Of a stretch of DNA of 64,000 nt, positions 5,306-20,581 are shown piece after piece. A program made the translations under genes and the position numbers. The stretch lies in the NCBI GenBank assembly GCA_002382805.1, contig DGAD01000034.1, positions 54,013 to 118,012 on the forward strand. Direction: 5' to 3'. Position 1 is the first letter of the stretch. Every line of letters starts with the position of its first letter. A model generated the notes under the pieces. The model did not search any database. It was given only the letters and a program-made list of their open reading frames with translations, and had not been told where the DNA came from. Source of the DNA: Clostridiales bacterium UBA4039 (GTDB taxonomy: Bacteria > Bacillota > Clostridia > Lachnospirales > Vallitaleaceae).

Positions 5306-5389
5306 CCTATTCCCCATCCTTTCTTACCATGCGACGATGTCGCACTGTACACTCTGTATACTCTTTACATTGATTAGACGTCTTACATT

Positions 5390-6106
5390 TTAAAAATGTT
5401 CCATCGCTTCTATCTTCATGGCAACGGGTTGATCCAGTCGAATTGAATCCGGGGTCACTATACTATCATAACACAAAATCTGTACCCCTTTTTTCTGGGC
5501 TTCTTTAAGCGTCTTGGAAAATAAAGGATCTGTTTTTTGATTGGGTCGAAATATTGTAACTCCTTTTAACTGAACCACAAAAAGTATATAGCTTTGGAAA
5601 CCTTCATCGATGCTATCCATAAGTTCCCGAATATGCTTCGTTCCTCGTGATGTTGGCGCATCCGGAAACATAGCCTCACCCTCTGCTTCCAAGGTCACCC
5701 CTTTGACTTCGATAAAGCCCTTGTTCCCGGTCTCAGCATTTTCATAATATATATCAAAACGGGATTTTTGAAAAGTCACTTCCCGTCGTAGCGTCGTAAC
5801 CTCACCAATGATATTACGTAAATGGGGATTAGAGGTTATCGCCTCATAAGCAACGGCATTTGGAATCTGGGAATCGATATTGATAAGTATGCCATTTTTA
5901 AAAATGGCAATTAAAGAATATCGTGTCTTACGTTCCGGATTTTTGGCTGGTTCTAGATAAACCTGTGCTCCCTCAACAAAAAGTTCCGCACATCGACCTG
6001 TATTTTTAACATGAACCTCGACCACTTCCCCATCTAGATTCACCTGTGCAATAAATCGATTCATTCGTCGTATAAATGTGGCACGCACCACTGCATCATA
6101 ATTCAT
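5390..6106 (-). CDS. sfsA: SfsA family DNA/RNA nuclease-like protein
   Basis: The 238-residue product has the length and sequence layout of SfsA (sugar fermentation stimulation protein). It has an N-terminal OB-like region (FIRRMNRFIAQV) and then a PD-(D/E)xK nuclease-like core with RSRFD-type residues (KSRFDIYYE) and GFIEVKGVTLE. The lysine in EVKG is the conserved core lysine. SfsA binds DNA, and nuclease activity has been proposed; its physiological role is uncertain. The open frame extends upstream to 6421 but would overlap the promoter of the divergent gene. The ATG at 6106 has a GAGG site and gives the family length, so I use it. Confidence 0.85.
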   Translation of the reverse strand: MNYDAVVRATFIRRMNRFIAQVNLDGEVVEVHVKNTGRCAELFVEGAQVYLEPAKNPERKTRYSLIAIFKNGILINIDSQIPNAVAYEAITSNPHLRNIIGEVTTLRREVTFQKSRFDIYYENAETGNKGFIEVKGVTLEAEGEAMFPDAPTSRGTKHIRELMDSIDEGFQSYILFVVQLKGVTIFRPNQKTDPLFSKTLKEAQKKGVQILCYDSIVTPDSIRLDQPVAMKIEAMEHF

Positions 6107-6217
6107 AAATAACCTCAACTTTACTCTATAGTCATACCCTACTATGTCATTATATACTAAAAACATGGTATAATGAAGATGATAACTATTATTAGGCAAA
6201 ACAAAGGAGTGTATTTC

Positions 6218-8125
6218 ATGAAAAAACATCTTAGTTGCCTTCTCATTATCGTCATCGCTTTTAGCACAACTGTATGTACGCCCAAAGCACAGGAACGCTT
6301 CACTGACGTAGCATTGACACATTGGGCCTATGAATATATACACGAACTTGCTGCAAAGGATGTCATCAATGGCTACCCTAACGGAGCTTTTTATCCTAAT
6401 CAAGATGTCACTGCTGAACAATTTTTAAAAATGGTCGTTAGCACCATTGGCTATCCGAACCTAAACGCATCTTCAGATAATCCCAGCCTTTGGTCCAAAC
6501 CCTATATCGAAAAAGCTTATACCCTCGGGATAATTCAAACCCCCGATGCCTTATATAACTTAGATTGGTCCGATGCTATTACGCGTGAAGTCGCTGCCGA
6601 TCTTGCCATCAAAGCAGATCATCTTCTCCACAACACACCAAAAGATAGCACGGCGACTGAAGCGAGCTACCCCATATCAGATATATACTTAATCAGCAAC
6701 GTTTTAAAGCCTTCGGTATATGATGCATTTGCAAGCGGCATCATTACAGGCTATGAAGATAAAACCTTCAAGCCCAAAGGATTATTGACCCGCGCTGAAG
6801 CCAGTGCGATTATTATGCGCATCACCAACATCGCCTTACGCCAGCCACAAGACACAACACTAGCTTTAGCACCTAGCTTGCCCAAAAGCCGTGTTATCGC
6901 CATGACCGATGGCGAAGGAGATGATCGGGCATCCATGGTCCGTTTTTTGTTCTATGCCAACGAAATGGACATCGAAGCCATCATTCAGACCAATTCATAT
7001 TATCAAATCAATGGAAATAGCCAGACGACAAATGTCTACTGGCTAGAAGATGTGATTGAAGCATATGGAAAAGACCTGAAGAATCTACGTATACATGATC
7101 CTAACTATCCCGATGCCTCTTTTCTCTTAGATAGGCTATACCTAGGGGATGAAGATCCAGAGCATGTCAAAAAAAATAATGCCAAAGCCATCCCTCCATT
7201 TGGAGCAACACCTGGCTCTAAAAAAATCATCGAAGTGCTCCTAAATGACGACCCACGTCCAGTATGGATACAAGCTTGGGGCGGATTAAACACAGCGGCT
7301 GAAGCACTTTATGAACTTAAATACAGTGGCAACTATAGTGCATCGGCATATAAAAAAGCTGCCGAAAAAACACGTATTTTTTCGATAACCTTTCAGGATA
7401 ATAGCGGCGGCTATATTCGGGAACACTTTCCTGAAGTCTTATTGATACGTAGTATGTCCTTTGATGATACCTGGGGTTATACCAACCCTCAAGACCAATG
7501 GACAGGGGAAGATTGGGTAACAGCTTATCTCTATAAACATGGAAACCTTGCTTCAAGATATACTAAGCTTTCGATTCTTGAAGGCGATACCCCTGCTTTT
7601 CTCAACAACCTTGCTAATGGACTACGTGCACACGAAAATCCTACCTTTGGCGGTTGGGGCGGACGCTTTTTTTCAAAAGATGGGTACTACTACACGGATG
7701 TTAAAGATGGCGGTTCTATCTATACTGCTGTTAAAAAATATATTCCTACAGCACAAAATGACTTTGCTGCCCGCCTAGATTGGGCAATGCATAATACCTA
7801 TGCAAAAGCGAACCATCATCCGATGATTCGCCTAGATGGTCCGCGTGATTTTGTTGTTTCACCAGGAGATGATATTGAGCTTTCTGCGCGTGGAAGCTAC
7901 GATCCAGATGGCGATAAAGTAACCTATACATGGGCACAGGATAAAAACGCCGGAACTTCCTCTGCCTCCATTAGCCTTCAAAACAACCACTCTTTGACAG
8001 ATGCATTCTTTATTGTTCCAACATCAGCAAAACCCGGAACCACCATTCACGTAATTCTAGAAGCCGTCGATGATGGAACCCCTCAGTTGGTACGATATGA
8101 ACGCCTCATTTTTCACGTGGAGTGA
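6218..8125 (+). CDS. SLH-anchored protein with nucleoside-hydrolase-like (DUF1593/Sde0182) domain
   Basis: A signal peptide (residues 1-26) is followed by three S-layer homology repeats: [15 protein letters not shown], a second starting near [11 protein letters not shown], and a third ending [12 protein letters not shown]. These anchor the protein to secondary cell-wall polymer. After a linker comes a nucleoside-hydrolase-like domain starting [15 protein letters not shown], where the acidic cluster replaces the DTDPGIDD metal site of true nucleoside hydrolases. The C-terminus is an Ig-like domain ([14 protein letters not shown]). This combination is known as the Sde0182 cellulose-binding family. 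Substrate is unknown; a carbohydrate is likely. The ATG at 6218 is preceded by AAAGGAG, and a TATAAT lies at 6169-6174. Its 3' end overlaps the convergent kinase gene by 13 bp. Confidence 0.8.
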
Positions 8126-9723
8126 AAGTGCTCAACAGCTGCCCGCTCAATATCTAACCCGTTGACATAGTATCGCATAAACTGTTCAAAGCCTTCCACA
8201 TCTTCGATAACAGGATCTAAGCGCGTTGACTCTTGCTGCGAAAATACTTGTGTATCTAAAAAGGATTCTAATCGCTTATCTTGCTTAGCATAGTCAAGAT
8301 AAGCGGCCAATATGGCAATCCCCCATGCTCCACCTTCTCCAGCCGTTTCCATGACTTCAACCGGAGCGTTGACCGCCGCCGCCATTAAGCGTTGGCCGAC
8401 GCCAGGCGTCTTAAATAAGCCTCCATGACCTAACATCTTATCCAGAACCACTTTTTCTTTTTTTAACAATATATCTGTCCCTATTTTCATAGCACCAAGT
8501 GAGGTCTGCAAGTGCACACGCATAAAGTTAGCAAGACTAAACGTGCTGTCAGACAAACGTGTAAATAGGGGTCTTCCTTCTTCAAATTTTGTGATGTGTT
8601 CACCCGAGAGGTATCCATAGGCAAGAAGGCCTCCACCATCTGCCTCCCCTTCAAGTGCTTTGTTGTACAAGGCTTGATAAAGTGTCGTCTTATCTATAGA
8701 TGCACCAAAAAGTTGTCCGACTTCATCAAATATATTCACCCATGCATCCAAGTCCGAAGTACAGTTGTTTGAATGGGCCATCGCAACCAATTTTCCTGAT
8801 GGCGTCGTCACAAGGTCAAGCTCTTTATAGACTCTGGATAATTCGTTTTCAAGTACGACCATGGCAAAAATTGATGTTCCTGCCGATACATTACCCGTGC
8901 GTTCAGCGACACTATTTGTTGCTACCATTCCTGTCCCCGCATCACCTTCTGGTGGGCATAGAGGAATATCCCCACAAAGTTCTCCACTTGGATCGATTAA
9001 TCTAGCGCCTTCTGGTGTAAGCGTTCCTGCATCCTCTCCCGCAACTAAAGTTTTTGGCAAGATGTCGCCTAACTTCCATGCAAATCCTTTTCCCGATATA
9101 TGTTCATCAAATGCTTCAATCATCCGTTGATGAAAGGTTTGGTGATGAATATCAATCGGAAACATCCCTGATGCGTCGCCAATGCCTAAAACTTTATTCC
9201 CGGTTAGCTTCCAATGAACGTATCCTGAAAGCGTCGTTATGTAGTCAACCTCACGAACATGTTCTTCTTGATTAAGAATCGCTTGATATAGATGAGCAAT
9301 ACTCCATCGCTGGGGTATGGGATAATTGAATAAATCCATCAATTGCACAGAAGCCTCTTGTGTAATATTGTTGCGCCATGTCCGAAAAGGAACTAATAGG
9401 TGTTCATGCTTATCAAAAGCCAAGTATCCATGCATCATGCCACTGATTCCCATCGCCTTGACGGTCGAAAGTTTTGCTCCATAGCGTTGATTCACATCCT
9501 TTTTCAAAGCTTTATAGCTCTCTTGAAGCCCGTTCCATACCTCGTCCAATGTATATGTCCAAATCCCTTGTTCATAAGAATTCGTCCATGCATGCTCACC
9601 TGATGCAATCGGTTTATAGTCCGTATCAATAAGCACAGACTTGATACGTGTTGAGCCCAGTTCAATCCCAAGAACAGCCTTCCCCTCTTGAATCCTATGT
9701 TTAATCATTTCACTTTGATTCAT
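8113..9723 (-). CDS. FGGY-family carbohydrate kinase
   Basis: The 536-residue FGGY kinase phosphorylates a sugar or ketose after uptake. The N-terminal nucleotide site reads [17 protein letters not shown] catalytic-base region ([10 protein letters not shown]) lies near residue 200, and the second phosphate motif ([14 protein letters not shown]) is near residue 290. The C-terminal adenosine motif ([15 protein letters not shown], then [10 protein letters not shown]) is intact. It resembles the clostridial FGGY proteins loosely labelled xylulokinase. The start is ATG 9723 with AAAGGAG, not the longer frame from 9756, which would run into the dehydrogenase gene. It is the last gene of the transporter-dehydrogenase-kinase operon, so its substrate is probably the ketose made by the dehydrogenase; the exact sugar is not determinable here. 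Confidence 0.85.
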
Positions 9724-9752
9724 GCTTTTCTCCTTTGCCCTAGCTTGTATGA

Positions 9753-10820
9753 TCAAGGTACTAACAAGACTTTGATAACACTTCCGCTAAGTGCCAACTC
9801 AAAAGCTTCTGTAAACGCTTCCAACGGATATTGTGCTGCAACGATATCATCTGCTGTGACTAACTTACGCTTTAATAAATCAATAGCGACCGGATATGTA
9901 TAGGGTCCCAAATGTGAACCGCGTATATCCAGTTCTTTACGGTCTCCAATTACACTCCAATCCGTGGTCGTCTCTTTTCCAAAGACGCTAAATTCAACAA
10001 AACGTCCCAGTTTTCGAATCATCTCCAAGCCTTGTGTTACCCCAATCGGTGATCCTGTTGCCTCAATATATACATCACAACCATATCCTTGTGTTAATGC
10101 TTTGACTTCGCTAATGGCATCTGTTTTTTGGGGATTAATGGTTATATCTGCACCAAGTTTTTTCGCCATCGCCAAGCGCTCATCACTGACATCTAATACG
10201 ATTAACGTCTTTGGTGTCTTTAAGCGTATAAGCTGAACCATACATAACCCTAAGGTTCCTGCGCCTGCAAGAACGACAACATCTTCATATTCTATGGTTG
10301 CCCGTTGCACCGTGTGCACTGCACATGCTAGAGGCTCAATAATACTAGCTTCTTCAAGTGAAAGTTCTTTTGGAATCTTATAGATTTTACTTACATTGTA
10401 GATCTTCATGTATTCTGCCATTCCACCATCAGCAATACCACCTTGGAATCCATACATATCATGAACTTCACACATCCAATATTGACCCGATTGACAGAAT
10501 CGGCACTTTCCACAGGGCTTAATTTGGTCGGTTATTATACGATCTCCGATTTGTATATCATATTTTTCAGCGGCACCTTCACCTAATTCAACGACGGTTC
10601 CAAAGAATTCATGTCCCGGTATAACCGGTGCCTTCATCCATGGATTTTCTCCACCCCAAAACATACTGGCGCCATGATACGCTTTCATATCACTGCCGCA
10701 TATCCCACAGGCACCGATTTTAATAATGACTTCTTCAAATCCGGCTTTTGGAATATCTACACTTTCAACTTTGTAATCTTCTGGTCCATAGGCTACCACT
10801 GCTTTCATTTTTTCGCTCAT
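9753..10820 (-). CDS. Zinc-dependent polyol dehydrogenase (erythritol/threitol dehydrogenase-like MDR)
   Basis: The medium-chain zinc dehydrogenase has 355 residues. Catalytic zinc ligands are visible as C41 (in GICGSD) and H70-E71 (PGHEFFG). The structural zinc lobe has four cysteines in the segment [16 protein letters not shown] near residues 103-117. The NAD(P) site is AGAGTLG near residue 185. The sequence, including [19 protein letters not shown] and [14 protein letters not shown], closely follows the group annotated as erythritol/L-threitol dehydrogenases. It likely oxidises an imported polyol to a ketose for the downstream kinase. It sits 35 bp after the permease gene and 29 bp before the kinase gene. 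Polyol identity is inference. Confidence 0.8.
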
Positions 10821-10855
10821 TATCTTTTCCTTCTTTCTTCGTTATATAGAGTTGA

Positions 10856-11845
10856 TTAGTCACGTTTTCTACTACTTAAATAAACTGCTGCAATAATGAT
10901 GAGCCCCTTAAATATTCGTTGAATATAAGGCGATACACCAATCAAATTAAGCCCATTAGTCAAGACGCCAAGCATGACGGCTCCAATCAAGGTGCCCACA
11001 ATATGTCCGCGTCCACCGGCAATATCTGTTCCACCAAGAACCACTGCGGCGATTGCATCCAGTTCAAAACCTTCTCCTGCCATGGGTTGTCCCGACATGA
11101 GACGGGATGTGATAATGGTTCCCCCAATGGATGCTGTGATTCCACTAATAACAAAGGGGAGAATAATATATAACTTGGTCTTAATTCCTGATAGTCGAAC
11201 AGCCTCTTCATTGCCTCCAATAGAGTATATATAGCGCCCCATTGCTAAATGATTCAATATAATATAGGCTAAAATATAGACAATCGCCATAATCACTACA
11301 GGCACCGGAACAACACCGAGTACATATCCCCGCCCAATAATTGAAAACTGATCGGGTAAACCATTAAGCGGATAACCGCCTGTATAAAGTAAGGCAAGTC
11401 CTCTAGGAATTTGCATCATCGCTAGGGTTACAATAATTGCAGGCAACTTTGCAAAGGCAATCAAGACACCGTTAATCGTTCCAAAAAGTGCACCAATAAG
11501 AATTCCCAACAAAATCGCTACGCCAATAGGCATGCCAAAATCTGCCATTGCCGCTGCCATCATTGTTCCTGAAAAAGCCATAATCGATCCAACCGATAGG
11601 TCAATTCGAGAGCTAATAATCACAAAGGTCATCCCTGTTGCCAATATAGAATTAATCGTGACTTGTCTTAATACATTACTAATATTGGATGATGTTAAAA
11701 ATTCAGGAGAAAAAAGCGCCATGACAATACACAAGACGACCAGTGCAGTGATGGTAAACATCATCGGTTCATCAAAGAGTTTCTGTATTATGGATCGTAA
11801 TGCTGCTATTTGACTATTTGACTTTCTTTTGCTCGTATTATCCAT
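10856..11845 (-). CDS. Ribose-type sugar ABC transporter permease
   Basis: This membrane permease of the RbsC/XylH (BPD_transp_2) family has 329 residues and about nine hydrophobic segments. Family landmarks are the N-terminal FLTSSNISNVLRQ, SRIDLSVGSIMAFSGTMM, and near the C-terminus GGTDIAGGRGHIVGTLIGA, the segment that contacts the ATPase. I start at ATG 11845, which has GGAGG at good spacing; the frame remains open to 11896 only because it overlaps the ATPase gene. The 8-bp overlap with the ATPase stop suggests translational coupling. Confidence 0.9.
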   Translation of the reverse strand: MDNTSKRKSNSQIAALRSIIQKLFDEPMMFTITALVVLCIVMALFSPEFLTSSNISNVLRQVTINSILATGMTFVIISSRIDLSVGSIMAFSGTMMAAAMADFGMPIGVAILLGILIGALFGTINGVLIAFAKLPAIIVTLAMMQIPRGLALLYTGGYPLNGLPDQFSIIGRGYVLGVVPVPVVIMAIVYILAYIILNHLAMGRYIYSIGGNEEAVRLSGIKTKLYIILPFVISGITASIGGTIITSRLMSGQPMAGEGFELDAIAAVVLGGTDIAGGRGHIVGTLIGAVMLGVLTNGLNLIGVSPYIQRIFKGLIIIAAVYLSSRKRD

Positions 11846-13352
11846 TTTGCTTACCTCCAGTAGCATAGTACATGATTTCTTCCTGGCTTGTTTCATCTGT
11901 AATCAGCTCACCTGTAATGCTTCCACCATAAACGGTCAGCACGCGGTCACTGACACCTAATACCTCCGGTAGTTCTGAAGATATCATGATAATCCCCAAA
12001 CCTTCATTTGCTAAATCACGCATTAATTTATGAATTTCATATTTTGCTCCCACATCAATTCCGCGAGTCGGTTCATCAAAAATCAAGATATGACAATCTG
12101 TATTCATCCACTTGGCCAGTACAACCTTTTGCTGGTTTCCACCACTCAGATTTTTTACTTTTTGCATTAGATGGGGTGTTTTGATATTGAGTGAATCAAT
12201 ATATTTTTTAGCAATTTTATTTTCATCACTTTGTTTTCTAAATCCAAATCGACCACATGATTTTTTCATGTTGGACAATGTAATATTATCCTTTACGGTT
12301 GCCTCAAGGATAAGTCCCTGTGTCTTTCTATTTTCAGGCACAAGACCAATACCATAGTTTAGCGCTTGATGCGGCGAATGAATCGCTACAGGTTTATCCT
12401 CTAATAGTACTTGCTTACTCTGTGCACGATCCGCGCCGATAAGTAGACGAATAAGTTCTGTACGTCCTGCACCTACAAGACCTGCAATACCAAGAATCTC
12501 TCCTTGTCTTAATTCAAAGCTTGCATTCTTTACATATTTTCCTCGATTAAAATTACGTGCCTTTAATATGATTTTATTTTTTTTGATACTGTCATATGGT
12601 GGCTTTTGAGGGTATTGATTGTCACCTAACTCTCGCCCAACCATCATTCGGACAATATCTTTTGCGGTTACATTTTTGACCAAATCCGTTCCTGCAAAAA
12701 TTCCATCCCTTAGGCAAGAAAATCGGTCACAAATTTCAAAAATCTCATTCATATGATGGGATATAAAAATCATCGTTACGCCATCTGCTTTGAGTTTCTC
12801 AATCAGTTCAAAAAATTTCTTTGTCTCGCCTTCGGTTAAACTGGCTGTCGGTTCATCCATAATTAATACTTGCGGATTCTCCATGAGTGCTTTGATAATT
12901 TCAACGATTTGCTGTTGTGCTACGGTTAAACGATCAACCGGTATATCTAGATTAACTTCCACTCCGATTTTATCTAGAAGCTTTTGTGCCTGACTTTTCA
13001 TCTTTTTGCGATCTAGAATCCCTGAAGATCTTTTTAATTCCTTGCCAAGAAAAATATTCTCATAGGCATTTAAATACGGTACAAGACTAAATTCCTGATG
13101 AATAATGCTAATTCCAAGCTTCTGGGCTTCTTTTGGATCTAAGATACTCATCGGTTTGCCTTTAAATAAAATAACGCCTTCGGTCTGTTGGTAGATTCCA
13201 ACTAGTATCTTCATAAGCGTGGATTTACCCGCTCCATTTTCTCCGACGAGTGCATGAATCTCTCCTGCATATATATCTAACGTCACATCATGAAGTGCCG
13301 TCACCCCAGGAAATCTCTTGGTAATGTTTTTAATTTCTAGTATTTTCTCCAA
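11838..13352 (-). CDS. Ribose-type sugar ABC transporter ATP-binding protein
   Basis: This is a 504-residue tandem ABC ATPase of the RbsA/MglA/XylG type. The first half has an intact Walker A (GENGAGKST), Q-loop (HQEFS), signature (LTVAQQQ) and Walker B (VLIMDEPTA). The second half has the degenerate Walker A usual for this family (GLVGAGRTE) and an intact LSGGNQQK signature and IFDEPTRGID. It energises uptake with the permease and the lipoprotein encoded either side. The start codon is TTG (13350-13352) behind an AAAGGGGG ribosome site; no ATG is available in a sensible place. It serves as a useful intact comparison for the dead ABC domain of the kinase at 15237-17120. Confidence 0.92.
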   Translation of the reverse strand: MEKILEIKNITKRFPGVTALHDVTLDIYAGEIHALVGENGAGKSTLMKILVGIYQQTEGVILFKGKPMSILDPKEAQKLGISIIHQEFSLVPYLNAYENIFLGKELKRSSGILDRKKMKSQAQKLLDKIGVEVNLDIPVDRLTVAQQQIVEIIKALMENPQVLIMDEPTASLTEGETKKFFELIEKLKADGVTMIFISHHMNEIFEICDRFSCLRDGIFAGTDLVKNVTAKDIVRMMVGRELGDNQYPQKPPYDSIKKNKIILKARNFNRGKYVKNASFELRQGEILGIAGLVGAGRTELIRLLIGADRAQSKQVLLEDKPVAIHSPHQALNYGIGLVPENRKTQGLILEATVKDNITLSNMKKSCGRFGFRKQSDENKIAKKYIDSLNIKTPHLMQKVKNLSGGNQQKVVLAKWMNTDCHILIFDEPTRGIDVGAKYEIHKLMRDLANEGLGIIMISSELPEVLGVSDRVLTVYGGSITGELITDETSQEEIMYYATGGKQNG

Positions 13353-13387
13353 GAAAACACCCCCTTTTTAGTTATGTGAAAAGTGAG

Positions 13388-13415
13388 GATGTATAGCGGA
13401 AAACCGCTATACATC
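13388..13415 (-). promoter_or_regulatory. Perfect intercistronic hairpin between binding-protein and ATPase genes
   Basis: Twelve perfectly paired bases (13388-13399 with 13404-13415) flank a four-base loop. No T-run follows on the minus strand, so it is not a standard terminator. Such hairpins after binding-protein genes usually stabilise the upstream mRNA segment or partly attenuate the downstream genes, giving more binding protein than membrane components. Confidence 0.75.
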
Positions 13416-13423
13416 TATAGGTT

Positions 13424-14431
13424 TTACCAAGTAAATCCTTCTGCATTTTCTTTTGTCAGTTTTTTCACTTCAATTGGCATCACTTCTGGAACAATCGATC
13501 CCCAGTATTTTGCAAGAGCAATCCCCAAACCAATACGTACTTGGTCGCGTGGGAATTGTGCAACTGTACATTTAAAGATGTCACCGTTTAAGATTGCATC
13601 GACCGCTTCTGGATGTCCATCCACGCTATATAAGCCAATATCTTTTTGCGCTGACTCAATCGCTGCCAAAGTTCCAAGGGCTCCACCATCATTGACACTA
13701 AAAATCGCAGAAAGGTCTGGATGTGCCTGCATCATGTTCTCTGTAACGGTCATTGCTTTATCTCTTTCTTGCTGACCATTTTGATTGTCAACGATTTCAA
13801 TTCCCGGATAATTTGCAACGGCAGCTTTAAACCCTTCAACACGCTCAAGAATTGGAACCACCGGAATACCGTTTAAGATAGCAACTTTTCCTTCTCCGCC
13901 TAAGTCTTCTGCCATTTGCTCTCCTGCCAAATAACCTGCATCATAGTTTTTGGATCCGGCAAAAGAATCAATGGGTCCATTTGCCTGCGCATCAATCGCA
14001 ACGACAATAACCCCCGCATCTTTGGCTTGAATAACTGCCGCTTCAACGCCTACACTATCCGTTGGGTTGATCAAGAGTATATCAATCCCTTTTTGAATCA
14101 TATCTTCAATATCACTAATCTGTTTGTTCACATCATGGGATGCATCTGTCGTGATAGCCGTAGCACCAATCGAAGCACACGCTTCTTCAAAAGCTTCGTG
14201 CATCGTTACAAAATATGGGTTATCCATGTCTTGAAACGACATCCCTATAACAAGATCACCCGTTGCATTTGCACTGCCTGAACCGCTATCATCTGTTGAT
14301 GCATCTTGCTTAGCTGTCGTTCCTGAAGTTTCATCTTTACCTGAACCGATTGGTTCTTGTGTACATCCGCTAAGTACGAGTACCAATACTAATATCATTG
14401 CTACCATAATTCCAAAACGTGTTCTTTTCAT
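13424..14431 (-). CDS. Sugar-binding lipoprotein of ribose-type ABC transporter
   Basis: The 335-residue periplasmic-binding-protein-like lipoprotein belongs to the RbsB (Peripla_BP_4) type. The lipobox is LSGC, with cysteine at residue 23. A Ser/Thr/Gly/Asp-rich linker leads into the mature fold, which begins DLVIGMSFQDMDNPYFVTM. Typical family segments follow: INPTDSVGVEAAV, VVAIDAQANGPID, and AIFSVNDGGALGTLAAI. It delivers substrate to the permease/ATPase pair encoded downstream. The ATG has an AAAGGAG site. The 206-bp gap upstream carries the terminator and hairpins described separately, so expression probably depends on read-through. Confidence 0.9.
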   Translation of the reverse strand: MKRTRFGIMVAMILVLVLVLSGCTQEPIGSGKDETSGTTAKQDASTDDSGSGSANATGDLVIGMSFQDMDNPYFVTMHEAFEEACASIGATAITTDASHDVNKQISDIEDMIQKGIDILLINPTDSVGVEAAVIQAKDAGVIVVAIDAQANGPIDSFAGSKNYDAGYLAGEQMAEDLGGEGKVAILNGIPVVPILERVEGFKAAVANYPGIEIVDNQNGQQERDKAMTVTENMMQAHPDLSAIFSVNDGGALGTLAAIESAQKDIGLYSVDGHPEAVDAILNGDIFKCTVAQFPRDQVRIGLGIALAKYWGSIVPEVMPIEVKKLTKENAEGFTW

Positions 14432-14543
14432 TGCTTATCTCTCCTTTGATTTTTTTAGTTGGTGTTGAACGCGTAACTATCCCCACAAGCCTCCTTTCAT
14501 ACTTGCTACGTTGTTAACTTTAAATGCCTTTAACGTGTCAAAA

Positions 14544-14597
14544 AAAGCCTTACAGATTTGTGAATGATGTGTCATCACAAATTATCTGTAAGGCTTT
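14544..14597 (-). terminator. Intrinsic terminator between the ANTAR regulator and the sugar operon
   Basis: A 14-bp basal stem (14544-14557 with 14584-14597) continues into an inner stem TTGTGA/TCACAA. On the minus strand it is followed by seven T. It lies 41 bases after the regulator stop and about 110 bases before the binding-protein gene. It either ends the two-component operon or works as the attenuator of the sugar operon. Confidence 0.88.
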
Positions 14598-14631
14598 CAT
14601 AACCTTTTTCAAATGCCACTCATAAGCATTT
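14590..14631 (-). promoter_or_regulatory. Candidate ANTAR antiterminator: two similar hairpins, the second overlapping the terminator
   Basis: Hairpin 1 (14631-14611, minus) has a six-pair stem AAAUGC/GCAUUU. Hairpin 2 (14606-14590) has AAGG/CCUU. In both, a closing U-G pair leaves a seven-base loop beginning UAUGA (UAUGAGU and UAUGAAA). The 3' arm of hairpin 2 is the same sequence that forms the foot of the terminator's 5' arm, so the two structures exclude each other. This is the architecture known for ANTAR protein targets such as those of EutV. The loops do not match the published six-base A1/G4 consensus, so the assignment is inference from structure and position. Confidence 0.5.
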
Positions 14632-14637
14632 TGTATT

Positions 14638-15213
14638 TTATTTTTGAATTAACTCATTGGCTTCGATAATTTTTTCGGCTAATGTTGCCATCTTGATATT
14701 TTTATCTCGGCTCATCTTTTGAAGCTTTTTCATCGCTTCATGTTCTCGCAAATGATGGTTTTCCATCAAAATTCCTTTGGCTCTCTCGATGTACTTACGG
14801 TCTTCATACTTTTTTTCCGTTTTTATCAGCTGTTGTTCGATATTTTTATAATCTAAAAATCTACTATTACTTGTCTGTATCGCCACTTTGATGTCTTGCT
14901 TGGATATAGGTTTAATTAAATATGCATATACTCCAACTTCATTGGCTTTCTTGACTAATTTTTGATCATGGTATCCGCTAACGATAATACTGGGGATCGA
15001 TAGTTTTTCATTGATCTGTCTAAGTGCATCAATACCATTAATAATAGGCATATTGATATCCATAATAACCATATCCGGTTTTTTTTCTAGTACCTGCTTA
15101 ACTGCATCCTTGCCATCTGTTGCTTCTCCAATTACTTCATGTCCTAGTTCTTCCAGATTCGCTTTGAGTCCCATAAGTGAAATATACTCATCTTCAGCAA
15201 TAATAACCTTCAT
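14638..15213 (-). CDS. Response regulator with ANTAR RNA-binding domain
   Basis: The 191-residue protein has a receiver domain with acidic pocket E7-D8, phospho-acceptor D52 (VIMDINMP) and the conserved lysine in LIKPIS. It is followed by a helical linker and an ANTAR domain (YIERAKGILMENHHLREHEAMKKL, in part). ANTAR proteins dimerise on phosphorylation and bind paired RNA hairpins to prevent transcription termination. Two candidate hairpins and a terminator lie directly downstream. The partner kinase gene ends 23 bp upstream. I choose ATG 15213, which has AAAGGGG at five bases; upstream in-frame ATGs overlap the kinase stop and lack a good site. Confidence 0.9.
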   Translation of the reverse strand: MKVIIAEDEYISLMGLKANLEELGHEVIGEATDGKDAVKQVLEKKPDMVIMDINMPIINGIDALRQINEKLSIPSIIVSGYHDQKLVKKANEVGVYAYLIKPISKQDIKVAIQTSNSRFLDYKNIEQQLIKTEKKYEDRKYIERAKGILMENHHLREHEAMKKLQKMSRDKNIKMATLAEKIIEANELIQK

Positions 15214-15236
15214 AAAATCCCCTTTCATTAAAACCA

Positions 15237-17120
15237 TTATCTGCCTAAAAAAATTCTTTCCGAATCTAATCTGATATTAACTTTTGCACCTGAATCATTG
15301 GTAAATTCAATAACGCCTTTGAATTCATTCTTGATCATGGATGTTACAATGGTCAACCCTAAACTTTTGTCTTTTTCTATATTAAAGTTTGGGGGAAATC
15401 CTTTTCCATTATCATGAATCTGAACATAGACTCCATTATGTTTTTTATATCCCAATATCATGACTTTTTTGTTCATATGCACCTGATCTGTAAATGCATA
15501 TTTGTTACAGTTACAAATCAATTCATTAATCAATAAAGCAATCGATGTCGCTTTACTATAGGGTATAAACATATCTTCAAAATCCACTTCTATATCCACA
15601 TCGGATTCCAATTCTGAAAATTCAATGATGACACTAATGAGCTCTTTGATATTGATGATACTGCGTCCCAATTGATCTTTTGATAACAAATCATGGACAG
15701 CGGCAATACTTTTAATTCTAGAAATCGTATTATCCAATATATTTTCAACTTCATTCTTATATTCTTGACTGATATATCTTTTTTGCAAGGCAATATAGCT
15801 GCTGATTGCTTGTAAATTGTTTTTTATTCGATGATGGCTTTCTTGCAGCATCGCTGAACGTCCGATAAGACGCGTATCTTCAATAGATATTGCCGCCTGT
15901 TGAGCAAATGCCATTAAATATTTTGCTTCTTCTTTTGAATGTACGTATGTTTCCTTATAAAAAATCTGTATAACACCTGCCACTCTTGAGCGAATACTTA
16001 ACGGGACACAGATAAGGGTTTTAACTTGCCCTTTTTCTTTAAAATACGAACAAAATTCTTTATCACGATGATTCGAGTAAAATAGCGTATCTTCATCCAA
16101 TAGCTGAAAAACAAAGTCTTCACGAACTTTTACATGCAAGGGTTCATCCTTATGATATACGTAGGTATCAATTTTTGTACGTGTACTATAATCTAACAAA
16201 TCAATACACGTCCCATCACAATTCATGGCTTTTGACACACTTTGAGCTAAAAACAACAGAACGTCCTTTAATTCATACTCGGAAGTCAAGAGTTCAGCTG
16301 CTCGAAAAACACTATTAAGCACCTCTTCATTTTCATCATATTTTATATCCAGATGACTGTCTTGAACGCTATTATCTTTTTTAAAACTATAACTATCCAA
16401 AAGGCGAAGAAGTTTACGCGGATCATTTTTAGCTTCTGCTGCTGTGAATTTACCTACGCTTTTACCTTTTGACAATACTGAAATATTATCAGCTATCTTT
16501 AATGCTTCTTCCCAGTTTTTTGTTACATAGATGACACTGCCTCCATGCCGCTTATATTCTTGTAGTATTTTAAATAGTGTCGAGACTTTTGATGTGCTTA
16601 AGTTTTCTGTCGGCTCATGTAGGACAACCAGTTGCGGGCTATGCATAAATGTCTTGGCTATTTCTAATAGCTTGCATTGTTCTTGTGTCAACCTTGCTAC
16701 TTTTTCTTTGACATGGATATGTATATTCAGATGCTGTAACACTTCTTCTGATTTTTTCTTGATTTTTCTCCAATGAATAAATTGTGTTCCTCGAATTTTG
16801 GGCAAACGGTTCAGCCATAAGTTTTCAGCTACCGTCAAATGACGGACCAAAGAATTTTCTTGAAATAAAAAGGCTATATCTTGATTCGATCGATTCAATA
16901 AGGACTTGGGACTTAACTGCTGACCATCGTAAAACACTTGTCCTTCTTCCAGGGGTGTAATCCCCGCCAACACAGATACAAACGATTTTTGTCCGGAATT
17001 ATTTTCACCGACGATAACATGTATCTCACCTCGTTTTAATTCAAGGGATATATTTGAAATTTTAAATCCATCAGGACTTTGCCCTGCCAAGTTAACAACT
17101 TTTAATATTGTATCTGACAC
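15237..17120 (-). CDS. Histidine kinase with N-terminal degenerate sugar-ABC ATPase domain, GAF and HisKA_2 domains
   Basis: This is a 627-residue fusion. Residues 1-240 align along their length with the first ABC domain of RbsA-type ATPases, but every catalytic motif is altered. Walker A is GENNSGQKS (38-46, lysine replaced by Q44), the signature is LTQEQ (144-148), Walker B is VVLHE (165-169, Asp replaced by His), and the switch histidine is K201. A GAF domain follows (about 268-415), then a HisKA_2 dimerisation domain with H430 in ESHHRIKNNLQ. A C-terminal ATPase domain has an N-box (INELICNCNKYAF) and a G-box (DNGKGF). The start is GTG with GGAG. It presumably phosphorylates the ANTAR regulator encoded next; the ABC-like domain is probably a sensor or docking module. 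Confidence 0.9.
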   Translation of the reverse strand: MSDTILKVVNLAGQSPDGFKISNISLELKRGEIHVIVGENNSGQKSFVSVLAGITPLEEGQVFYDGQQLSPKSLLNRSNQDIAFLFQENSLVRHLTVAENLWLNRLPKIRGTQFIHWRKIKKKSEEVLQHLNIHIHVKEKVARLTQEQCKLLEIAKTFMHSPQLVVLHEPTENLSTSKVSTLFKILQEYKRHGGSVIYVTKNWEEALKIADNISVLSKGKSVGKFTAAEAKNDPRKLLRLLDSYSFKKDNSVQDSHLDIKYDENEEVLNSVFRAAELLTSEYELKDVLLFLAQSVSKAMNCDGTCIDLLDYSTRTKIDTYVYHKDEPLHVKVREDFVFQLLDEDTLFYSNHRDKEFCSYFKEKGQVKTLICVPLSIRSRVAGVIQIFYKETYVHSKEEAKYLMAFAQQAAISIEDTRLIGRSAMLQESHHRIKNNLQAISSYIALQKRYISQEYKNEVENILDNTISRIKSIAAVHDLLSKDQLGRSIINIKELISVIIEFSELESDVDIEVDFEDMFIPYSKATSIALLINELICNCNKYAFTDQVHMNKKVMILGYKKHNGVYVQIHDNGKGFPPNFNIEKDKSLGLTIVTSMIKNEFKGVIEFTNDSGAKVNIRLDSERIFLGR

Positions 17121-17169
17121 GCATTGTTCTCCAATCGTATAAAAATTACAATAAAAAACACCTATCTAT

Positions 17170-17190
17170 TGTCACATTTGTAATATGACA
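17170..17190. repeat. Imperfect 21-bp palindrome in the kinase leader
   Basis: TGTCA at 17170-17174 and TGACA at 17186-17190 form the outer arms, with further AT/AT pairing inside. It lies between the consensus promoter and the kinase start. It could be an operator or a weak RNA hairpin; nothing identifies a binding protein. Confidence 0.35.
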
Positions 17191-17259
17191 TGTAGTAGGC
17201 ATCCATAACCAACACATATTCACCAACCATAAGTGAATTATTTCTTAACTTCTGTACAA

Positions 17260-17288
17260 ATTATACAATGACTATAATAAATTGTCAA
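17260..17288 (-). promoter_or_regulatory. Consensus sigma-A promoter of the kinase-regulator (and sugar) operon
   Basis: The minus strand reads TTGACA (17288-17283), a 17-base spacer, then TATAAT (17265-17260), an exact match to the housekeeping consensus. It gives a leader of about 130 bases before the GTG of the kinase gene. No comparably good promoter is visible between the regulator and the transporter genes. Confidence 0.85.
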
Positions 17289-17361
17289 CACATTTTTTAA
17301 AATTCTTGTCAAACACGCATCAAATACTCTTAAAATGCTCAAATTAAATTGCCCGGAAAAA

Positions 17362-17388
17362 AACCCCTGGATCAATGATCCAGGGGTT
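17362..17388 (-). terminator. Intrinsic terminator of the cold-shock gene
   Basis: A 12-bp GC-containing stem (17362-17373 with 17377-17388) has a three-base loop and is followed on the minus strand by a run of T. It lies 23 bases beyond the csp stop codon and separates csp from the kinase promoter. Confidence 0.9.
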
Positions 17389-17411
17389 AAGCGTCTATAT
17401 ATTATAAATAA

Positions 17412-17609
17412 TTATAGGCTAACTACGTTTTCAGCTTGAGGGCCTTTGTTTCCTTCAACTACGTCGAATTCTACTTTTTCGCCTTCTTCTAAAGTTTTGA
17501 AACCGTCTTTTTGGATTTGTGAGTAATGTACAAATACATCATTTCCTTCGTCTGAAGTGATAAAACCAAATCCTTTGTCTCCATTAAACCATTTAACTGT
17601 TCCTGTCAT
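17412..17609 (-). CDS. Cold-shock protein, CspA family
   Basis: The 65-residue single OB-fold protein binds single-stranded RNA or DNA and melts mRNA structure. RNP1 (KGFGFI, residues 13-18) and RNP2 (VFVHY, residues 25-29) are both intact. It begins [13 protein letters not shown] and has the family's usual length. The ATG has a CGGAGG site. A leader of more than 100 bases follows a possible promoter (TTGATT, 16 bases, TATGAT), consistent with the long 5' leaders of cold-shock genes. The adjacent fatty-acid desaturase is another typical low-temperature function. Confidence 0.95.
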
Positions 17610-17806
17610 AATAAATTACCTCCGAATTTTTATTTCCTTGATTCATTTGTAACACAAAACTATAGCTTTCTTTCAATAAAAATTCAGCTGATAATTTGAT
17701 ACACATAATACAAGGTTGATTTAATCATACACTATTTTCAGAAAAAATCAAGTCTTTTTAGCAAATTTGTATGATTTTTTCTAAATTTCCTTCAAAAAAA
17801 TGAGTA

Positions 17807-18808
17807 TTAATTATAGTTTTTCCTCAATTTTAATTCTTTGAAGGAAATTAACCGTTTTCTTTTTTGATCATATATTTGTAATAATGCCAGTTTTAAACTC
17901 TCTTTAAAGCCAACTGTCTTGACACTTTGCAACTCATTTATACTGTAATAACACTTCTTCAGATGATAGTTTGGAATTCGTGAATTCAAGTGATGAATAT
18001 GATGATAGCCAATGTATCCGCTAAACCATTCTAAAATGGATGGAAGCTGATAGAATGTACTTCCCTTTAACGCGGCATCAACACTATTCCATTCACTGGC
18101 TTCTTCCCAGTAGACATCTTCAAATTGATGCTGTACGTAAAACATCCACACGCCGATGGATCCTGCAACAAACATCACCGATAGCTGAATCAAAAGATAG
18201 GCTTCTATACCAAACATCAAGGACAATACGATTGCTTGTACCAAAATCCCAACATTTGTAACTACATAACCGATATGCTCTTTTTGAGACGCATGTTTTG
18301 TTGGAAAACGTTGAAGAATGGTAAAAAGAAAAATCGGTGCCACGCCAAAAAGAAATAGCGGATGTCTAAACAAACGATACCAACCTTTCATTAATACAGG
18401 CTGTGCCTTATATTCTTCAACCGTTAACGTCCATATGTCCCCTGCGCCTCTTCGATCAAGGTTACCTACTGCGCCATGATGGATATTATGGTCTTTTTGC
18501 CATGCAGGATATGATGTAAATGTGAGAATTCCAAAGAAAAATCCAAGCCTTCGATTCCATTTTTCACTAGCGGTAAACGATTGATGCGTACAATCATGGA
18601 AAAGGATAAATACGCGAACCATAAATAATCCATTTAAAATTATTAAGGGAATCAGAACAAACCAACTCACCTGTGCTTTATATAGATACATGGTAAACAT
18701 TAATAAGGCTATATATACTACAACTGTATTCATTATCTGACTGATAGCTTTTTTTAGACTCGGTGTTGCAAAAGGTTTTAACTGTTGATTCCATTCTTTT
18801 CTTGTCAT
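17807..18808 (-). CDS. Membrane fatty-acid desaturase (di-iron, Des-like)
   Basis: The 333-residue integral membrane enzyme introduces a double bond into acyl chains of phospholipids using O2 and an electron donor. All three histidine boxes are present: HDCTH (71-75), HNIHH (107-111) and HHIHH (269-273), which bind the di-iron centre. Two hydrophobic pairs lie before box 1 and between boxes 2 and 3. It resembles Bacillus Des. The gene follows accA of the FAS II operon by about 85 bp with no terminator between, and has its own promoter with an embedded Fur-type operator. An oxygen-dependent enzyme is notable beside an otherwise anaerobe-like gene set. Confidence 0.88.
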   Translation of the reverse strand: MTRKEWNQQLKPFATPSLKKAISQIMNTVVVYIALLMFTMYLYKAQVSWFVLIPLIILNGLFMVRVFILFHDCTHQSFTASEKWNRRLGFFFGILTFTSYPAWQKDHNIHHGAVGNLDRRGAGDIWTLTVEEYKAQPVLMKGWYRLFRHPLFLFGVAPIFLFTILQRFPTKHASQKEHIGYVVTNVGILVQAIVLSLMFGIEAYLLIQLSVMFVAGSIGVWMFYVQHQFEDVYWEEASEWNSVDAALKGSTFYQLPSILEWFSGYIGYHHIHHLNSRIPNYHLKKCYYSINELQSVKTVGFKESLKLALLQIYDQKRKRLISFKELKLRKNYN

Positions 18809-18852
18809 AATATCTCCTTTACGATAATATGTAGTATTGATTACTACTTATT

Positions 18853-18881
18853 ATTGTAATGGTAATGATTATCATTGTCAA
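18853..18881 (-). promoter_or_regulatory. Promoter of the desaturase gene
   Basis: The minus strand carries TTGACA (18881-18876), a 17-base spacer and TACAAT (18858-18853), a near-consensus sigma-A promoter. It starts about 13 bases after the accA stop codon. The spacer is almost entirely filled by a Fur-like palindrome. Confidence 0.8.
18861..18879. promoter_or_regulatory. Putative Fur box
   Basis: The 19-base minus-strand sequence GACAATGATAATCATTACC matches the classical Fur box GATAATGATAATCATTATC at 17 of 19 positions. It lies between -35 and -10 of the desaturase promoter, where a bound repressor would exclude RNA polymerase. Iron control suits a di-iron enzyme. Another Fur-family protein (PerR, Zur) cannot be excluded from the site alone. 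Confidence 0.68.
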
Positions 18882-18893
18882 GTTTTTTTAGCA

Positions 18894-19673
18894 TTAAAAC
18901 TTGCGATACCGCTGATAGCGTTTTTCAGTCAGCGTATCTTTGGGTAGCTCCATTAATTCTTTTAAGGAATAAATCAACTTATCTTTAAGGAGTTCTACAA
19001 TCAAGTCAAAGCTTTCATGCGCTCCGTCATAGGGCTCTGTGACCACCGAATCGATAACTTTGAGATTTTTAAGCTCCTGAGCGGTAATCTTCATCTCCTC
19101 AGCCACTTTAGGGGCTAGCGAACCATCTTTATAGAGAATGGATGCAAAGCCTTCTGGCGACAATATAGAATAGATAGCATTCTCAAACATCCAAACTTCA
19201 TCAGATACTGCAAGGGCAAGAGCTCCGCCACTACCACCTTCACCAATAATAATGGAGATAATCGGCACCTTAAGATTACTCATCTCAAAAAGATTGCGTG
19301 CAATGGCTTCTCCTTGTCCACGCTCTTCTGCTTCAAGTCCGCAAAAGGCTCCGGAGGTATCCACAAAACATACAATGGGTCGATTAAATTTTTCAGCTTG
19401 CTTCATTAAACGTAAAGCTTTACGATAGCCATCGGGATTAGGCATGCCAAAGTTTCGCTTAACCTTTTCCTTGGTTTTAGATCCTTTTTCTTGACCGATA
19501 AAAGTAACCGGTATCTCGCCAAGCATACCAATTCCGCCAATAATGGCTGCATCGTCATGATAATAACGATCACCATGCAATTCAATGAAGTCTTCGCTAA
19601 AAGCTTCAATATATCGCTGCGCCGTCGGTCGGTCGGATCGTCTTGCTTTTAGTACGCGCTCCCAAGCCTTCAT
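18894..19673 (-). CDS. accA: Acetyl-CoA carboxylase carboxyltransferase alpha subunit
   Basis: The 259-residue AccA transfers the carboxyl group from carboxybiotin to acetyl-CoA together with AccD, forming malonyl-CoA. Visible landmarks are [19 protein letters not shown] near residue 33, the oxyanion-loop segment [18 protein letters not shown] near 105, and [13 protein letters not shown] near 140. It overlaps accD by 4 bp (ATGA), indicating coupled translation of two subunits that work in a fixed ratio. It is the last gene of the FAS II operon and is shorter at its N-terminus than proteobacterial AccA, as is common in Firmicutes. Confidence 0.95.
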
Positions 19674-20581
19674 TCAATCACCTCTTCTCTTACATCATCT
19701 ATTTCTCCATCTGATTCATCATCACTGTTATAATGATGTAGTACCAAAAGCTGGTGTAGCCTATCTCTTAGTTGTTTTCGTTCAACAATCACATCTACAA
19801 ATCCATGCTCAAGCAAAAACTCTGCCGTCTGAAAACCTTCCGGCAGTTCTTGACGAATCGTATCTCGAATAACCCGCGGTCCTGCAAAGCCAATAAAGGC
19901 ACCGGGTTCAGATAAAATAATATCACCAAGCATGGCAAAACTTGCTGTCACCCCACCGGATGTGGGATCCGTCAAGATGGTAACATAAAATCCACCCTCG
20001 TCATGGTGACGTTTAAGTGCCGCTGCTGTTTTTGCCATTTGCATCAAGGAAATAATACCTTCTTGCATTCGTGCGCCACCAGATGCAGTAAATAATATAA
20101 GGGGTAAGTGTTCTTGCGTCGCAAGCTCCGTCAAGCGGGTAATCCTCTCACCAACTACATGTCCCATGCTTCCCATGAGAAACCGACTATCCATCACAGC
20201 GATAGCCACTTTGATTCCCTTAATTCTTCCTGTCCCCGTTAGTACTGCTTCATCGATGCCGGTCTTTTCTTGAAGACCTTGGATTTTATGCTCATACCCT
20301 TTAAAGTCTAGAACATTTTCCGTTGTCATCTCCAAAAACAAAGGTGTATATGTCCCCTTATCAAGTATCATCTTAAGACGCTGTGGCGCGCTCATACGAA
20401 AGTGTTTTTGACATTGAGGACAAATATATCCATTATTGCGATAATCATCTTTATAGACGACCTCATGACACTGTGGGCACTTAATCCATGAACCCGATGG
20501 AACATTGGGCTCTGTTTTATGAATAATCGTTGTCGATGTATTCACTTGAATGTACTTTGTCTTTTTAAACAATGGCTTCAT
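19670..20581 (-). CDS. accD: Acetyl-CoA carboxylase carboxyltransferase beta subunit
   Basis: The 303-residue AccD has an N-terminal zinc ribbon with four cysteines ([10 protein letters not shown] and [10 protein letters not shown], residues about 38-61). The carboxyltransferase crotonase-like fold follows, with [19 protein letters not shown] near residue 165 and [16 protein letters not shown] near 205. It acts with AccA. The C-terminal tail is rich in Asp and Glu. The gene starts 5 bp after accC, so accC, accD and accA are tightly packed. Confidence 0.95.

Follow-up and report, generated by a model that had tools for sequence, protein, structure and literature searches.

A family of HisKA_2 histidine kinases with a catalytically dead sugar-transporter ATPase as input domain, linked to CUT2 operons and an ANTAR-type RNA element

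PdtaS-PdtaR consists of a HisKA_2 histidine kinase and a REC-ANTAR regulator, and in the XylFII-LytS type systems of the Bacillota, an extra sugar-binding protein acts on the kinase. For EutV, a two-hairpin RNA lying before a terminator, which the phosphorylated regulator prevents from forming, has been described, with hexanucleotide target loops carrying A at position 1 and G at position 4 and four eut sites (PMC3369931). BceAB-BceRS combines a kinase that reads an ABC transporter with an output that raises synthesis of the transporter, BceS being a membrane kinase bound through membrane helices (PMC6978683, PMC10314905). Transporter-coupled sensing is best known from such separate membrane kinases leaning on a transporter.

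We analyzed a 64,000-nucleotide stretch of DNA (the window). The system encoded there is of a known kind, in which HisKA_2/ANTAR antitermination governs the use of a nutrient; no description of its input domain was found in the open-license PMC literature searched. EutW-EutV has the kinase core, the REC-ANTAR partner, and the two-hairpin RNA before a terminator in common with the window system. The EutV hexaloops carry A1/G4, whereas the loops described here are 7 nt long with A2/G4 and other spacing, and against the four eut sites there are one or two elements where the kinase itself is encoded. Only the window kinase has a dead ABC ATPase plus a GAF domain as input when it is set against EutW-EutV and PdtaS-PdtaR, the latter judged from Pfam names. 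Its N-terminal 240 residues align end to end with the first NBD of the CUT2 ATPases RbsA, XylG, and AraG; whereas RbsA has two working NBDs, the kinase has a single NBD that has lost its catalytic residues and is fused to a kinase. In XylFII-LytS, a transporter-like part also serves as kinase input, but that part is an extracellular binding protein rather than a cytosolic ATPase. The working mode of BceAB-BceRS would resemble that of the window system only if the docking proposed below is true, and unlike BceS, the window kinase lacks a membrane span, has the transporter-like part within its own chain, and would act through RNA. Here the receptor seems to have arisen from a component of the transporter.

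The kinase and the loss of its ATPase motifs

The preliminary description of this DNA placed at 15237-17120 a histidine kinase with a dead sugar-ABC ATPase as its N terminus, followed by GAF and HisKA_2/HATPase domains. These coordinates are right, the ORF running on the minus strand from a GTG start at 17120 to a stop at 15237, and Pfam, NCBIfam, and AlphaFold agree on the N-terminal domain, as does the Pfam order on the remainder (Table 1). Pfam matched ABC_tran at residues 22-171 (77 bits), GAF at 291-413 (26.3 bits), HisKA_2 at 427-499 (56 bits, cut-off 22.3), and HATPase_c at 525-620 with 26.3 bits, 0.1 below the cut-off of 26.4. When P0001 was aligned with 61 of the 120 listed homologs, hand-picked for spread (alignment A1), the H-box ESHHRIKNNLQ was invariant in 62/62, as were three N-box residues (N, E, and N).

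Table 1. Features of the kinase locus in the window
Feature	Position	Strand	Basis
Promoter-like TTGACA-17-TATAAT before kinase leader	17260..17288	-	12/12 matches, consensus scan only
Two-hairpin ANTAR-type element, kinase's own leader	17198..17238	-	Covariance model 42.2 bits; in model alignment
Terminator-like stem and T-run overlapping second hairpin, kinase leader	17152..17202	-	Fold
Histidine kinase, 627 aa: pseudo-NBD, GAF, HisKA_2, HATPase_c	15237..17120	-	Pfam, AlphaFold, hydropathy
Dead CUT2 (RbsA N-terminal) ATPase domain, residues 3-240	16401..17114	-	Pfam, NCBIfam, motif alignment
GAF domain, residues about 270-415	15876..16313	-	Pfam (291-413) and alignment A1
Kinase core: HisKA_2 427-499, HATPase about 501-620	15261..15842	-	Pfam, alignment
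Response regulator, 199 aa: REC 11-120, ANTAR 140-191	14638..15237	-	Pfam
Two-hairpin ANTAR-type element before transporter operon	14590..14631	-	Covariance model 45.6 bits; in model alignment
Intrinsic terminator, 5' arm common with second hairpin	14540..14597	-	Fold z -7.4
Substrate-binding protein (SBP), RbsB-like (Peripla_BP_4)	13424..14431	-	Pfam, NCBIfam
True RbsA-type double ATPase, first-NBD motifs intact	11838..13352	-	Pfam, NCBIfam, motif check
Ribose-type permease (BPD_transp_2)	10856..11896	-	Pfam, NCBIfam
Zinc dehydrogenase, Tdh/IolM kind	9753..10820	-	Pfam, NCBIfam
FGGY sugar kinase (XylB-like)	8113..9756	-	Pfam, NCBIfam

The best NCBIfam matches of the kinase N terminus were the CUT2 ATPases XylG, AraG, MglA, and AlsA, with alignment to the first NBD from end to end (residues 3-232 on profile 3-232 for XylG, 21-245 on 21-245 for AlsA), and for the RbsA-like proteins of the same genome, first NBDs outscored second NBDs as matches to this region. 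Hydropathy detected no membrane span in the kinase (highest 19-residue mean 1.54), which is apparently soluble. Its AlphaFold model has a mean pLDDT of 75 and a pTM of 0.44, the ABC domain lying mostly at 80-94 with one block at 59, and Foldseek matched the model to ABC ATPases, for example LptB with a TM of 0.85 by target length. The model of a divergent member from Butyricicoccus, which reaches only 26.7 bits with ABC_tran, keeps the ABC fold (pLDDT mostly 80-96) and was also matched to ABC ATPases by Foldseek.

In the window kinase, Walker A reads GENNSGQKS (K to Q), Walker B VVLHEP (D to H, the Glu retained), the switch TKNW (H to K), and the signature LTQEQ. At E ≤ 0.001, the homolog search returned 698 proteins, and plain ABC ATPases may be present among the weaker matches beyond those listed; among the 120 matches listed, query coverage was 88-100%, with HisKA_2 annotated in 120/120 and ABC_tran in 119/120, ruling out a chance ABC match. 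Motifs were tabulated for 141 distinct homologs, comprising 121 proteins and 29 kinases from 31 loci minus identical segments; the truncated L137 and interrupted L138 kinases were left out for length. None of the 141 has all three motifs intact and 125 have none: Walker A GK[ST] is present in 14, Walker B DE in 2, and the switch His in 0, with the 14 retaining the P-loop only and the 2 Walker B only. All three motifs are intact in 24/24 linked RbsA proteins (the labeled ORFs with lengths of 470-540 aa, including a few second CUT2 copies at the same locus). The statement that all catalytic motifs are broken thus holds for the window kinase and has to be relaxed for the P-loop in 14 of the 141 homologs; the motif losses for which a survey of homologs had been suggested are family-wide. 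Such losses, with GAF and kinase retained, also rule out a one-off pseudogene.

The signature LTQEQ had been read as a further sign of death, a point that did not survive comparison. The position of the signature Gly is E in the window kinase and A (17), S (5), or G (2) in the 24 linked RbsA N-domains, and because these mostly carry A or S there, the Gly is not diagnostic and its loss was dropped as proof of death. The replacement residues are themselves conserved: the Walker B D has become H in 77/121 proteins and Q in 25/121, the switch H has become K in 102/121, K208 is K in 120/121, and W203 and E99 are invariant in this set of 121. Near-fixed noncatalytic residues across the larger set are N100 (139/141), W203 (135/141), and K208 (134/141); V-x-E-N is frequent in ABC ATPases generally. 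By sequence, the input domain of the kinase is related to the first NBD of RbsA and is catalytically dead. It might instead act as a nucleotide sensor that takes ATP without hydrolysis and reports the energy state, as the G-K-[ST] kept by 14 homologs, Halanaerobiales members among them, could indicate; but the P-loop is lost in 127/141, the window's included, and linkage to a single transporter class would be left unexplained, which makes such a role very improbable.

Linkage to CUT2 operons and an RNA output

The regulator gene, whose product matches REC with 87.8 bits and ANTAR with 66.1 bits, overlaps the kinase stop, and likely RNA targets were found for it, so the ANTAR partner that had been guessed is correct. 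On one strand, the order is kinase, REC-ANTAR, SBP, RbsA, permease, zinc dehydrogenase, and FGGY kinase. A dehydrogenase and an FGGY kinase beside a CUT2 importer suggest a polyol or pentose that is oxidized and then phosphorylated. The linked enzymes vary, with a phosphotriesterase-like protein at L149 and an aldolase plus PfkB at L146, and since they differ between loci, the sensor family is probably not bound to one sugar. The kinase locus at L144:4683-10258 (+) encodes two CUT2 permeases as well as a glycyl-radical enzyme together with the activator of that enzyme. Adjoining the window operon, at 6173-8125 (+), is a gene for an S-layer-domain protein with an Sde182 nucleoside-hydrolase-like domain; in the region 17358-17761 (-), a cold-shock gene of 65 aa (17609-17412) was identified by eye, and its 5' region matches the Rfam cspA thermoregulator with 69.2 bits, below the curated 78.

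Thirty-one kinase loci were examined, 30 of them distinct (L015 = L150). A REC-ANTAR gene adjoins the kinase in 30/31 (partial at the contig end in L013), the sole exception being the truncated kinase remnant L137. The regulator precedes the kinase in L013, L014, L015/L150, L019, L131, L146-L149, and L153; the two genes are divergent in L009, L010, L012, L132-L134, and L145; tandem kinase-then-regulator order also occurs. When BLAST was applied with fixed criteria, 25/29 loci had a linked CUT2 ATPase or permease (window and L150 excluded, remnant L137 included); in L014 and L015, about 4-9 kb separate the CUT2 genes from the regulator. The four failing loci are the very short contigs L010 and L013, in the second of which the start of an RbsA gene is still visible, and L147/L149, where RbsA is split over two half-size genes and, in L149, a Peripla_BP_4 protein adjoins. 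Every locus long enough to test therefore has CUT2 genes, in line with the linked transporter anticipated for homologs, and the contrary case named beforehand, homologs with intact Walker motifs and no linked transporter, was not encountered. As controls, we used HisKA_2 kinases without the ABC domain, drawn from many phyla and to that extent an imperfect control (71 of the 72 other HisKA_2 loci, L028 having been removed since it matched as RbsA). CUT2 genes were linked in 1/71 of them (Fisher p 2e-18) and in 1/25 of those that also have an ANTAR-type regulator (p 3e-10), the one locus being L020, with a kinase of the PdtaS type (GAF_PdtaS, PAS). At L012:6390-7912 (-), in Gracilibacillus halophilus, the linked RbsA gene lies in two ORFs, a real break or an assembly error. 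At L137:9184-10970 (+), the truncated kinase lies by a dehydrogenase fragment in a genome that also has two full kinases, and it is probably the remnant of a lost kinase copy.

New here is the output, a REC-ANTAR regulator together with a covarying two-hairpin/terminator element. The same hairpin pair stands before the kinase and before the SBP gene, and its second hairpin shares an arm with the terminator. In the kinase leader this terminator is weak (fold z -1.86, 9/200 shuffles as good); that of the SBP leader was missed by the terminator scan because its loop is long. Fourteen modules from 13 loci were alignable (alignment A2), with the two-hairpin pairing formed in 98.1% of cells, and 28 cells changed on both sides compared with 6.0 when shuffled and 3 to 9 in slid controls, a covariation count that is biased toward structure since the modules were chosen for hairpins. 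The fairer test is the covariance model search, which gave E < 0.01 in 24/31 kinase loci and 0/72 control loci; 11 of the 24 positive loci were absent from model building, one of which, L148, is nearly identical to L146. At this threshold, the element was not found in L010, L014, L015/L150, L137, L147, and L149. By coordinates, 22/24 loci have it ahead of the CUT2 operon or of the gene that opens the operon's cluster. At L146:11681-11733 and L148:11614-11666 (+), it precedes a divergent 278-aa gene, not CUT2 genes; in L146, this gene has a weak DAPG_hydrolase match.

All 28 loops in A2 measure 7 nt and follow the pattern N-A-N-G-R-N-N, A occupying position 2 and G position 4; counted from the loop A, the fourth base is G in 12/14 first loops and 8/14 second loops and otherwise A. 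A third hairpin with a similar loop lies ahead of the usual two at L138:11677-11759 (+). The covariance model replaced a strict hairpin scan (8/31 loci) and a looser one (13/31), whose 17 "control" matches are narrower copies of focal loci, except L002. Rfam gave three matches in window positions 5000-20000, all below curated scores and none to an ANTAR family.

In the window's 3.5 Mb genome, where the best 150 of 3058 candidates were scored, the element occurs only as the two window copies (E values 1.5e-6 and 9.1e-6; next 4.3). The genome has a second ANTAR gene, at G000:C24:27094-27234 (-), and the RNA model finds no target beyond the window locus. Among 19 other kinase genomes of the 25 available, with the best 150 candidates scored per genome, 20 matches reached E ≤ 0.05, and by coordinates each of them falls at a kinase locus; as 10/12 non-window model sequences come from the searched genomes, the absence of matches elsewhere is the informative part. 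G595, with two full kinase loci, has two elements, and G397 (three kinases) and G788 (two kinases) have one each.

The kinase family appears to switch on linked transporter genes through a private RNA switch. By analogy with EutW/EutV, phosphorylation would dimerize the regulator, and the dimer would hold both hairpins and prevent the terminator, upon which the transporter genes, and in the window the kinase too, would be read; such a circuit would amount to dedicated induction of one CUT2 sugar (or polyol) operon. We regard the anatomy and output of the system, as read from sequence, as well supported and very probably correct. The loci supply compact candidate ANTAR regulons in Bacillota, and with input, likely partner, and output in one small cluster, the question of how a transporter's state is sensed by bacteria becomes testable.

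Possible roles of the dead domain

Docking on the permease, or competition with the true ATPase, had been proposed in the preliminary description. The weaker step of our proposal is that the pseudo-NBD would have kept the RbsA-NBD fold so as to bind the linked CUT2 transporter on its cytosolic side, most likely where the permease accommodates an NBD. Each kinase dimer would bring two NBDs, the same number as RbsA, a stoichiometry that fits docking; kinase activity would follow transporter state, with the GAF domain relaying it or adding a second signal. Among the possible roles of the dead ATPase, we tentatively favor docking on the transporter as the likeliest. The more specific picture of a class of receptors that mimic a transporter, in which the two dead NBDs of the kinase dimer occupy the NBD sites of the CUT2 permease dimer and a signaling protein impersonates the transporter motor and answers through a private RNA antiterminator, is possible but doubtful. 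If it is true, a nutrient is sensed by impersonating the motor, and more of that one transporter is made.

In ABC importers, the NBD surface toward the permease is formed by the helical subdomain and by the residues that follow the Q-loop. Conservation of the pseudo-NBD relative to RbsA, with its minimum in the N-terminal third, is 0.52-0.54 in Walker A (0.52), the helix after Walker A, and the noncatalytic stretch 56-80 (0.53); 0.63 in the Q-loop; 0.66 in both the D-loop and the N terminus; 0.85-0.86 in residues 90-142; 0.96 in 215-235; and 1.06 after the switch. The Walker B, signature, and switch stretches stand at 0.81-0.86 with their residues changed. This profile is compatible with a seat on the permease being kept while the engine was lost, and it is weakly specific: it does not single out the permease side because residues 56-80 are relaxed and the Walker B, signature, and switch stretches are retained. 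We accordingly dropped it as strong evidence for a permease surface, 56-80 being noncatalytic and relaxed like Walker A. The position equivalent to MalK Arg47, an EAA-loop contact, is mostly Q, E, or N in the kinases and is not kept. A search for solved sequence relatives of the permease gave 0 matches at E ≤ 0.001.

NBDs dimerize with NBDs in ABC proteins, and the pseudo-NBD could heterodimerize with an NBD of RbsA, rather than bind the permease, and read the ATPase cycle or sequester RbsA. The domain resembles the first NBD of RbsA-type proteins best, and its signature stretch retains 0.83 of RbsA conservation, both of which would suit such pairing; further parts of the NBD dimer surface are relaxed, as the Walker A and D-loop values indicate, and we consider pairing with RbsA unlikely.

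Docking was also compared with the coevolution of the proteins, using the 19 of 22 chosen loci that have all of them. Given the kinase core, the partial r with permease distances was 0.29 for the ABC domain, 0.37 for the regulator, 0.90 for RbsA, and -0.13 for GAF; by part of the ABC domain it was -0.005 (3-89), 0.10 (90-142, 258/2000 permutations as high), and 0.33 (143-236). This mirror-tree result is not specific to docking because the regulator, which is not expected to touch the permease, scores as high, and we rejected it as proof. Together with the relaxed 56-80 stretch, the value of 0.10 for residues 90-142 makes docking slightly less likely. The lack of any special tracking of the permease by the ABC domain would suit a system in which GAF does the actual sensing, of the imported sugar or of a product, the ABC-like domain being a structural or dimerizing leftover without transporter contact. 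Also in keeping with a sensing GAF domain, conservation is higher in GAF than in the ABC domain (mean pairwise identities of 0.58 and 0.41), and the two examined kinases without the ABC domain, L018 and L020, have PdtaS-type GAF and PAS inputs. A mere leftover is harder to reconcile with the ABC fold of the modeled Butyricicoccus member, with the near fixation of N100, W203, and K208, and with the rarity of CUT2 operons beside kinases that lack the domain, and this explanation is on the unlikely side.

Origin and distribution

In a quick tree without bootstrap, built from representatives with the motif columns excluded, 74 kinase domains and 14 RbsA domains separate across one branch (SH-aLRT 99). 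The pseudo-domain is apparently of single origin by this sequence comparison, in which the RbsA proteins of these loci alone form the outgroup. The P-loop G-K state changes four times on the tree, with Halanaerobiales members among the keepers; an ancestral P-loop lost repeatedly would fit, in a tree that gives no direction of change.

A single-sequence scan of genome contigs gave no match, nor did plasmids queried with the relative P0007 at E ≤ 1e-30. More than 150 relatives are among the protein matches listed, some of them named misleadingly, for instance as "ribose transport system ATP-binding protein." Their names point to Bacillota (Vallitalea, Clostridium, Halanaerobium, and Bacillus relatives), plus Mesotoga, Fusobacteriaceae, and Elusimicrobiota MAGs. 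As lower bounds from scoring the top candidates alone, there are at least 2 true members in 391 genomes of the window's own class, the window's genome included, with RbsA-only matches in two more genomes, and in other groups at least 4 in 193, 9 in 38, 3 in 159, 3 in 87, and 3 in 348 genomes. The distribution of the family is scattered.
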